DNA of 64,000 nucleotides, taken from assembly GCF_010994095.1 (NCBI RefSeq), contig NZ_WJYO01000002.1:434001-498000 (forward strand). Reading direction: 5' to 3'. Shown piece after piece: positions 17,183-18,420 of the stretch. Position 1 is the first letter of the stretch; each line of letters begins with the position of its first letter. The stretch comes from Mumia xiangluensis. Lineage in GTDB: Bacteria; Actinomycetota; Actinomycetes; Propionibacteriales; Nocardioidaceae. The translations under genes were made by a program, and so were the position numbers. The notes under the pieces are model-generated. The model saw nothing but the letters and a program-made list of their open reading frames with translations. It ran no database searches and was not told the DNA's origin.

Positions 17183-17588
17183 GCGGATGAGCCGGCCTGT
17201 AGGCCGGATTCTGTCAGGGTGTCTCCCCACCCCGGCGACCATCTATCTCGGCGCCGCGTCGCCGCGACGCTCCAGCAACCTACCCGCAGGCTCGGCGAGC
17301 AGCTTCGACGCCTGCGCGGGCCCGGAGGCCCTTCTTGGTCTTGCTCCCGGTGGGGTTTACCTAGCCGCCCCGGTCACCCGAGGCGCTGGTGGGCTCTTAC
17401 CCCACCCTTTCACCCTTACCCGCACCTCACTCGCGTGAGGCCGCTGGCGGTTTGCTCTCTGTGGCACTGTCCCGCACGTCACCGTGGGTGGGTGTTACCC
17501 ACCACCGTTGCTCTGTGGAGTCCGGACCTTCCTCGGCATCGTCGGTGCGCACCGACGACGACGCGGCCGCCCGGCCGACTCATCCGCG
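17183..17588 (-). ncRNA. rnpB: RNase P RNA (type A)
   Basis: The minus strand shows the RNase P RNA landmarks: a 5' GCGGATGAG that pairs with the 3' CTCATCCGC (P1), the P4 strand GAGGAAGGTCCGGACTCC about 60 nt in, the ACAGAGCAACGGTGG core, and a 3' end reading CCGGCCTACAGGCCGGCTC. Length is about 405 nt, normal for actinobacterial RNase P RNA, which cleaves the 5' leader of tRNA precursors. Boundaries come from the P1 pairing and are good to a few bases. Confidence 0.93.
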
Positions 17589-17662
17589 TTCGACAGGGTA
17601 GCCGACCGCCGGGAGTCCAGCCTCATTTGGTGGACCGCCGTCCCACCGCGTAGACTCGAGCA

Positions 17663-17838
17663 CGCGAAAGGGAGTAGTCCCCAACATCCGTGTCGACACA
17701 CTGACCTTCGGGTCCGGTACGGAAGGCGTCACCTCAGGTGGCGCGGACGAGACTTTCGGCCAGTGACACGACCCTACGGACGTGCCTGGTCGAAGGCGCT
17801 CCCAGGCTCTTCGTCCAGGTGACGAGGAGCTTTTTTTC
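17663..17838 (+). promoter_or_regulatory. yybP-ykoY manganese riboswitch and expression platform
   Basis: The leader of the TMEM165/GDT1 gene carries the yybP-ykoY hallmarks: GGGAGTAG at about 17670-17677 on the 5' side and GAGACTTTCGGCC at about 17750-17762 on the 3' side, with hairpin arms between. This RNA class binds Mn2+ and turns on Mn exporters. Downstream, 17806-17830 forms a 10-bp hairpin followed by seven T (17831-17837) ending just before the ATG. The 3' arm contains the GAGGAGC ribosome binding site, so the same hairpin can terminate transcription and hide the start. A TAGACT -10 candidate lies at about 17651. Confidence 0.88.
17806..17837 (+). terminator. Riboswitch-controlled intrinsic terminator
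   Basis: Arms 17806-17815 and 17821-17830 pair (one G-U) over a 5-nt loop, followed by T7. It lies immediately before the ATG at 17839 and overlaps the ribosome binding site. Confidence 0.8.
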
Positions 17839-18420
17839 ATGCTGTACGCGTTCTTGCTGAGCACGGTGGTCATCTTCGTGGCCGAGCTCGGCGACAAGAG
17901 CCAGCTGATGGCGATGACGTTCGCGTCTCGCTACCGTCCTCGCGACGTCCTGATCGGCATCACGGTCGCCACCGCCGTCGTGCACCTCGCATCCGTCGGC
18001 ATCGGCTTCTGGGTCGGTGAGGCGTTCGCGGACGCGCAGCACTGGATCACCCTCGTCGCGGGCATCGCCTTCCTCGGCTTTGCCGCGTGGACGCTTCGCG
18101 GCGACGAGCTCTCCGTCGAGGAGCGCTCGAAGGCTCAGCGGAGCTCCGGCGCCGCCGTGTGGGCGGTCGGCGGCGCGTTCTTCCTCGCGGAGCTCGGCGA
18201 CAAGACGATGCTCGCCACGATCACGCTGGCGACGCAGGAGAACTGGCTCGGCACGTGGATCGGCAGCACGCTCGGCATGGTCGCTGCCGACGCCCTGGCC
18301 ATCCTGCTCGGCGCGTGGCTCGGTCGTCAGCTGCCGGAGAAGGTCATCCGGTACGGCGCCGCTCTCCTGTTCGCCGGATTCGGCCTGCTGCTGATCGCCG
18401 ACGGGGTCGGCTGGCTCTGA
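17839..18420 (+). CDS. TMEM165/GDT1-family cation (Mn2+) exporter
   Basis: A 193-residue membrane protein with six to seven helices and the duplicated family signature: FVAELGDKSQLMAMTFASRY near the N-terminus and FLAELGDKTMLATITLATQE in the second half. These E-x-G-D-K-(S/T) motifs form the cation path in GDT1/TMEM165 and MneA-type exporters. The manganese riboswitch in the leader supports Mn2+ export as the physiological role. The ATG at 17839 is fixed by GAGGAGC 8 nt upstream. It is monocistronic: the next gene is convergent. Confidence 0.93.
   Translation: MLYAFLLSTVVIFVAELGDKSQLMAMTFASRYRPRDVLIGITVATAVVHLASVGIGFWVGEAFADAQHWITLVAGIAFLGFAAWTLRGDELSVEERSKAQRSSGAAVWAVGGAFFLAELGDKTMLATITLATQENWLGTWIGSTLGMVAADALAILLGAWLGRQLPEKVIRYGAALLFAGFGLLLIADGVGWL

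Follow-up and report, generated by a model that had tools for sequence, protein, structure and literature searches.

The leader RNA of the GDT1/MneA-type exporter gene of Mumia xiangluensis is probably a yybP-ykoY-family riboswitch that is turned ON by Mn2+; it is compact, lacking P2, and has a hairpin that would serve both as a transcription terminator and as a sequestor of the Shine-Dalgarno (SD) sequence. The leader occupies positions 17663-17838 of the 64,000-nucleotide stretch of DNA that was analysed (the window) and ends directly upstream of the ATG at 17839. The RNA elements, their covariation, the mutual exclusion of the switch helices, a conserved -10 box and the linkage to GDT1 were observed here; the ligand, the direction of control and termination are what we infer.

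Genomic context and promoter

The gene downstream of the leader (17839-18420, + strand) encodes a GDT1 (UPF0016, MneA-type) transporter of 193 amino acids with two ELGDK motifs (PF01169, E 6.7e-43), which is the single PF01169 match in the Mumia genome. An alternative GTG start further upstream, at 17782, was rejected because the protein homology begins at or beside the ATG. Passages of a review tie the bacterial GDT1/UPF0016 members so far characterised to Mn2+ transport and report that the yybP-ykoY riboswitch controls the UPF0016 gene in 328 of 333 bacterial strains screened (PMC7380456). On the - strand, the divergent neighbour is the RNase P RNA gene (17184-17582; RF00010, 263.6 bits), which lies outside the switch. 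The same divergent arrangement upstream of GDT1 is found in the tested Mumia and Aeromicrobium loci (L005, L066, L075, L080), and in two Janibacter loci (L060, L067) RNase P RNA lies downstream of GDT1 on the same strand.

A predicted -10 box, TAGACT, lies at 17651-17656 (+ strand), and its TANNNT pattern is conserved in relatives. The pattern begins 16-30 nt upstream of the L1 motif of the aptamer in 98 of 100 relatives, compared with a mean of 5.0 and a maximum of 11 of 100 in mononucleotide shuffles. The spacing from the box would place the Mumia transcript start at about 17662-17664. As the conserved box stands at a near-fixed distance, transcription probably starts at P1 itself.

Aptamer architecture and covariation

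The regions upstream of 110 homologous loci were compared. The L1 motif is present in 107 of these and missing from three, and the set yielded 100 distinct leaders, with some genomes represented twice; the 13 of 103 protein matches that were not fetched include none better than E 5e-45. The 100 distinct aptamers align and fold into P1, P1.2, P3.1/P3.2 and P4, for which the Mumia coordinates (all + strand) are given below. The 5' strand of P1, CGAAAG (17665-17670), belongs to helix 1, which is paired in 100% of cells and has two pairs with double changes. It leads into the 5' side of L1, GGAGUA (17671-17676). The motif GGGAGUAG is found in 100 of 100 aligned sequences, an invariance that is partly built in because the loci were selected on GG[AG]AGUAG. 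P1.2 is formed by GUCC (17677-17680) and GGAC (17745-17748), is likewise paired in 100% of cells and covaries through UA/CG and CG/UA double changes. The junction that follows (17681-17686) lacks the P2 hairpin of canonical members and lies in the gap between AGUAG and UCGACA. The P3 arm (17687-17723) comprises P3.1 (17687-17691/17719-17723) and P3.2 (17703-17706/17711-17714), with L3 GUCGACACACUG and CCGG; double changes occur here in five of the eight pairs of helix 3 and in four of the five pairs of helix 4. UCGACA of L3 is invariant (100 of 100 sequences) and played no part in selection. The P4 hairpin, GCGUCACC-UCA-GGUGGCGC (17726-17744), corresponds to helix 5, with 92.7% of cells paired and four pairs with double changes. 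On its 3' side, L1 is closed by GAGA (17749-17752), which reads GAGAC in 100 of 100 sequences, a GAGAC-like motif having also served to cut the aligned sequences. The 3' strand of P1 with its extension, CUUUCGGCCAG (17753-17763), has two alternative partners, namely the P1 5' strand in the presumed ON state or 17786-17796 in the presumed OFF state (helix B).

Over the whole aptamer, 28 pairs are paired in 97.2% of cells compared with 83.5% in shuffled alignments, 17 pairs show double changes, and 0 of 500 shuffles were as good on all five measures. When the pairing is shifted by 1-3 columns, no more than 47.1% of cells remain paired, instead of 97.2%. The complete 189-nt leader folds with a z-score of -3.51. 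The lowest-energy fold of the Mumia leader also pairs GGGAGU of L1 with GCUCCC (17798-17803), a pairing that lies outside the mechanism proposed below. Several GDT1 homologues have no exact L1 motif upstream (L030, L072, L081, L163, L167, L189, L193, L202); of these, L202 retains GAUGAGACUUUC, which resembles a remnant or variant of the motif.

Within L3, A17698 is likely the Mn-sensing adenosine. The alignment with E. coli mntP and alx, together with the published site bases, would make it the equivalent of A41 in Lactococcus lactis.

The distance between AGUAG and UCGACA leaves little space for a further arm. Of 107 loci, 103 have 15 nt here, three 16 nt and one 19 nt, whereas the corresponding gap in E. 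coli mntP is 29 nt and that of the RF00080 loci of Actinomycetota is 23-27 nt in the six of 11 in which it is measurable. Among 30 loci found with model R1, which was built from the relatives' leaders, the gap was measured in the best 16 (L112-L127), at 15-16 nt; of the other 14 (L128-L141), 12 have a different L3, L129 has no L1 motif and the match in L136 landed elsewhere. A four-way junction with P2 was thus not found in these leaders, a gap of 15 nt being too short for P2, and judged by spacing the aptamer appears to be a three-way junction. According to a secondary source, the Mn-sensing mgtA riboswitch of Streptococcus pneumoniae is a yybP-ykoY member with a three-way junction (PMC9495176). 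Since such a junction is reported inside the family, the loss of P2 marks a variant rather than an outsider, and the idea that the three-way junction is wholly new was set aside. As described there, the S. pneumoniae case shares the junction with Mumia but comes from a firmicute and precedes a P-type ATPase gene (PMC9495176).

Family membership and the Rfam model

The original prediction had named a search with the Rfam yybP-ykoY covariance model (RF00080) as its check and the lack of a hit as grounds for refutation, and this check failed: the window gave no match at E<=10, and none appeared in 17550-17950 even at that threshold. We count such a match as a matter of database labelling, not as a property of the RNA. 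On the Mumia genome, RF00080 gave one 13-bit match elsewhere (E 0.39), which was taken as chance. The model was run on 14 control genomes, where it exceeded its cut-off in two and gave matches at E<=1 in nine; at E<=0.001 it matched only E. coli, B. subtilis and Caulobacter, and it found nothing at this threshold in Lactococcus lactis, a species with a solved member. Among 296 Actinomycetota genomes, RF00080 matched 10 at E<=0.001, one of them over the cut-off. At the same E-value, R1 matched 56 of the 296, a count that includes some lineages on which it was trained; 36 of the 56 genomes are outside the class of the window. Of 19 relatives chosen from the 110 loci, six had RF00080 matches at E<=1, all under threshold (L067 at 0.58). 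The best relative, locus L040, reached 31.2 bits (E 4e-7) in a separate search, and three Micromonosporaceae relatives had no RF00080 match at E<=10. The printed consensus of the model (177 positions) has no P1 pairing and contains a long, odd stem after P3. RF00080 probably undercounts Mn riboswitches, because it passed its cut-off in only two of the 14 controls and one of the 296 Actinomycetota genomes; hence, the model is likelier to be at fault than the leader.

Homology to experimentally proven members is provided by R1, which finds the leaders of E. coli mntP (30.0 bits, E 3e-7) and alx (26.5 bits, E 4e-6), both E-values being rough. R1 also recovers the RF00080 site in 10 of 11 RF00080 loci; in the remaining one (L150) its match lies elsewhere. 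The leader further has both sides of L1 (GGGAGUAG/GAGAC) and the metal-site bases of L3, including the putative sensing adenosine. Like known members, it precedes a gene of Mn homeostasis, GDT1, and the same holds for eight of 10 proteins, chosen from 14, encoded downstream of further leaders: three GDT1, two TerC, two P-type cation ATPases and one Na/Ca exchanger, besides one M48 peptidase and one protein without a family. Based on the covariation, the invariant L3 and the recovery of the E. coli leaders by R1, we regard the leader RNA as a compact-form member of the yybP-ykoY family. In this respect, the expectation of a yybP-ykoY-type aptamer was supported, with the L1 motif in 107 of 110 loci.

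The known members (RF00080; L. lactis yoaB, X. oryzae, E. coli mntP/alx, B. subtilis yybP/ykoY) and the Mumia leader have in common P1.1, L1 with GGGAGUAG and GAGAC, P1.2, a P3 with the L3 [U/A]CA triplet, P4, the 3' strand of P1 as switch, and Mn exporter genes downstream. The Mumia leader differs from the canonical form in the lack of P2, the lack of a match to the current Rfam model and an extra relay segment between P1 and the terminator. Related actinobacterial leaders have been listed for Corynebacterium glutamicum, where, in the relevant passages, an earlier Rfam version gave yybP-ykoY scores of 43.7-49.9 bits and one leader, upstream of terC, was observed in RNA-seq (PMC3890552); the comparison with Mumia concerns this listing.

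Expression platform

Downstream of the aptamer, the switch segment CCUGGUCGAAGG (17785-17796, + strand) can pair either with 17753-17763 (helix B) or with 17809-17819 (helix C). Helix B consists of the P1 3' strand and CUGGUCGAAGG, and helix C, the presumed antiterminator and antisequestor, of CCUGGUCGAAG and CUUCGUCCAGG with one internal U-U mismatch. Helix D is the SD hairpin, and positions 17809-17815 are common to C and D. B excludes P1 and C, and C excludes D.

The three helices are better matched to their own sequences than to those of relatives. In 93 sequences, the mean energies of B, C and D were better with the own partner than with a swapped one (0 of 200 swaps as good); seven of the 100 sequences, without a start or switch motif, were left out. 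Taken singly, 75, 68 and 67 of the 93 sequences do better with their own partner than with the median swapped one for B, C and D, respectively. The result for the means also holds for 139 distinct platforms sorted by similarity into 4, 8 or 12 groups, with swaps confined to each group, which reduces relatedness without fully removing it. Mismatches at four pairs of B occur in 0, 2, 7 and 25 of 139 platforms; for helix C, the counts out of 89 are 16 mismatches at one pair and 52 cases in which the site of the U-U mismatch stays unpaired.

Helix D (+ strand) is composed of a 5' arm, AGGCUCUUCGUC (17804-17815), a loop (17816-17820) and a 3' arm, GACGAGGAGCUU (17821-17832), which contains the SD sequence GAGGAG (17824-17829). 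A U7 tract (17831-17837) follows, then C17838 and the ATG at 17839. The 64-nt end of the leader folds to this hairpin with -28.1 kcal/mol (z -3.06), which none of 200 shuffles equalled. The claim that the 3' arm of the hairpin is the ribosome binding site and that the T7 tract ends one base before the ATG thus agrees with the sequence. With 8 nt from the stem core (to 17830) to the ATG and the SD in the 3' arm, the layout is that of the 'dual transcription and translation attenuation' platforms of Barrick and Breaker 2007, in which a terminator hairpin carries the ribosome binding site in its 3' side and lies <=10 nt from the start codon, as passages of that paper describe (PMC2258182). The class was described for metabolite riboswitches, and 'yybP' is absent from the text of that paper (PMC2258182), whereas an Mn-type aptamer is concerned here at 71% GC; in principle, the two are the same. 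Judged by its position, hairpin D is placed to block both transcription and translation.

In E. coli mntP, one Mn aptamer likewise couples translation and termination, but there, according to passages of the source, termination is Rho-dependent and not intrinsic (PMC11647493). In titles, abstract beginnings and passages of the literature, neither a P2-less actinobacterial Mn riboswitch nor a dual platform on one was named.

In some other Actinomycetota leaders (L134, L139), which precede TerC or a P-type ATPase, the platform is far simpler: the SD (CGGAGG, CCGAAGGA) itself complements the 3' strand of P1.

Proposed mechanism

Passages on other members describe P1.1 as the Mn-stabilised switch helix that competes with the terminator (PMC6754395, PMC11087558), and helices P1, B, C and D predict the same ON-by-Mn logic here. 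At low Mn2+, the P1 3' strand (17753-17763) would leave the aptamer and pair with the switch segment in helix B. This would leave 17804-17815 free, so that hairpin D could form and trap the SD, and together with U7 it would stop transcription immediately upstream of the ATG. Any RNA that escaped termination would still have a buried SD. When Mn2+ is present, docking of L1 and L3 would keep P1 closed, and the switch segment could then capture 17809-17819 in helix C and block hairpin D, such that the exporter gene would be transcribed with a free SD. The computed energies favour the OFF state, by 16 kcal/mol, and do so throughout the settings used; with P1 forced, D is favoured over C by 4.7 kcal/mol. 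The energies of the two states were therefore rejected as a full account of the switch, and the ON state would have to rest on Mn2+ and on folding order, helix C presumably being synthesised ahead of the 3' arm of D.

The U-tract in the genome and across relatives

The original prediction had called intrinsic terminators with a clean T7 uncommon at this GC content, and T7 is indeed rare: at a GC content of 71.3% (464-kb sample), T7 occurs at two sites on both strands of 4.62 Mb, and the other copy lies inside a 366-codon stop-free frame. Runs of T6 or longer number 13 in the genome, some of them also after strong hairpins. A candidate intrinsic terminator lies at one of these sites (L236, C1:288017), where T6 follows a long hairpin of -35.4 kcal/mol. 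The position next to the start codon proved unusual, as predicted: T>=5 in the 14 nt upstream of the start is seen in one of 672 ORFs, namely this gene; these ORFs were mechanically called in the 464-kb sample and have 200 or more codons and an SD-preceded start.

Across relatives, the SD hairpin recurs widely, and the U-tract is a lineage-specific add-on of Mumia, Aeromicrobium and Janibacter. The leader of another Mumia genome is identical. Of 84 aptamer-bearing Nocardioidaceae loci (90 of 103 protein matches examined, six of the 90 without L1 motif), 20 have T>=5 within the 14 nt ahead of the start codon: four of six in Mumia, 16 of 36 in Aeromicrobium and 0 of 42 in other Nocardioidaceae. 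Four Janibacter leaders also have T>=5. Since two of the six Mumia and 20 of the 36 Aeromicrobium leaders do without it, termination is not required for the device generally. In all 24 distinct leaders with T>=5, the T-run starts within -2 to +1 nt of the end of the stem.

In a tree of 97 GDT1 proteins, the U-tract needs at least five changes, three of which are forced by well-supported branches. It is clustered on this tree (0 of 500 shuffles as low), for which the bootstrap had not settled. The Janibacter proteins (L060, L065, L067, L076) group with Aeromicrobium (support 96/85) despite belonging to a different family, and both have the U-tract. A horizontal transfer of the gene plus leader between Janibacter and Aeromicrobium is possible.

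Alternative explanations

The hairpin might hide only the SD, with U7 as an unstructured spacer between SD and AUG, so that the Mn2+ riboswitch would act on translation only; we consider this unlikely but deserving of serious attention. It is favoured by relatives that have the relay and the SD hairpin without a U-tract, as in all 42 Nocardioidaceae loci outside the two genera, and by the 16 of 24 U-tracts that stop exactly 1 nt before the start. Nor is there an excess of terminator-like sites nearby, a simple scan of 19 kb having found four where shuffles gave 2.5; the pattern of hairpin plus T-run alone is thus indecisive, and what decides is how long the T-run is, together with the comparison among relatives. 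In the other eight of the 24 leaders, however, the T-run stays at the stem and the start codon is 2-7 nt away, which is why a terminator explains the placement of the T-run better than a spacer between SD and AUG does. The near absence of T7 from the genome also argues against a mere spacer.

The dual, Mn2+-responsive reading can also be set against explanations that concern the ligand or the leader as a whole. It is improbable that the leader is a variant for another ligand (e.g., Ca2+, Ni2+/Co2+ or an alkaline signal) whose specificity was shifted by the loss of P2 and by an A for L. lactis U39. P2 is missing, the L3 metal-site triplet starts with A instead of U in the alignment we adopt, and GDT1 proteins may transport Ca2+ too; alx also responds to alkali. 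However, C and A of the triplet are invariant, the linked genes are the usual Mn set, and the same A-C-A occurs in the leader of E. coli mntP, which responds to Mn (PMC9603457). We find it very improbable that the T7 is a homopolymer contingency locus, whose slippage would alter SD-AUG spacing and terminator strength: the tract varies from T5 to T7 among species and comes and goes, but this variation is seen between species only, and the relay is conserved without the tract. A chance resemblance of GC-rich upstream DNA that folds by composition can be practically dismissed. GC-rich sequence folds readily, and an Rfam match is lacking, but the folding z-scores, the covariation, the -10 box and the recovery of E. 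coli riboswitches by R1 all speak against it.

Implications for Mn2+ sensing in Actinomycetes

New here, as far as comparative sequence evidence carries, would be a P2-less subtype that is largely missed by the current model, its conserved relay and a U-tract that comes and goes. We give about even credence to a broader reading, in which Actinomycetes have a distinct, widespread P2-less subtype of the Mn2+ riboswitch that is nearly invisible to Rfam, and whose relay ends in a lock on the ribosome binding site that has repeatedly gained and lost a U-tract, moving between translational and dual control. The Mumia genome, almost cleared of such tracts, would then have this T7 as its sole copy away from an open frame. 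The findings point to an under-annotation of Mn2+ riboswitches in Actinomycetota by the current model. Sister species with and without a U-tract on the same aptamer and relay offer a natural experiment on an added terminator, and the P2-less leaders allow one to ask whether Mn2+ sensing needs P2.
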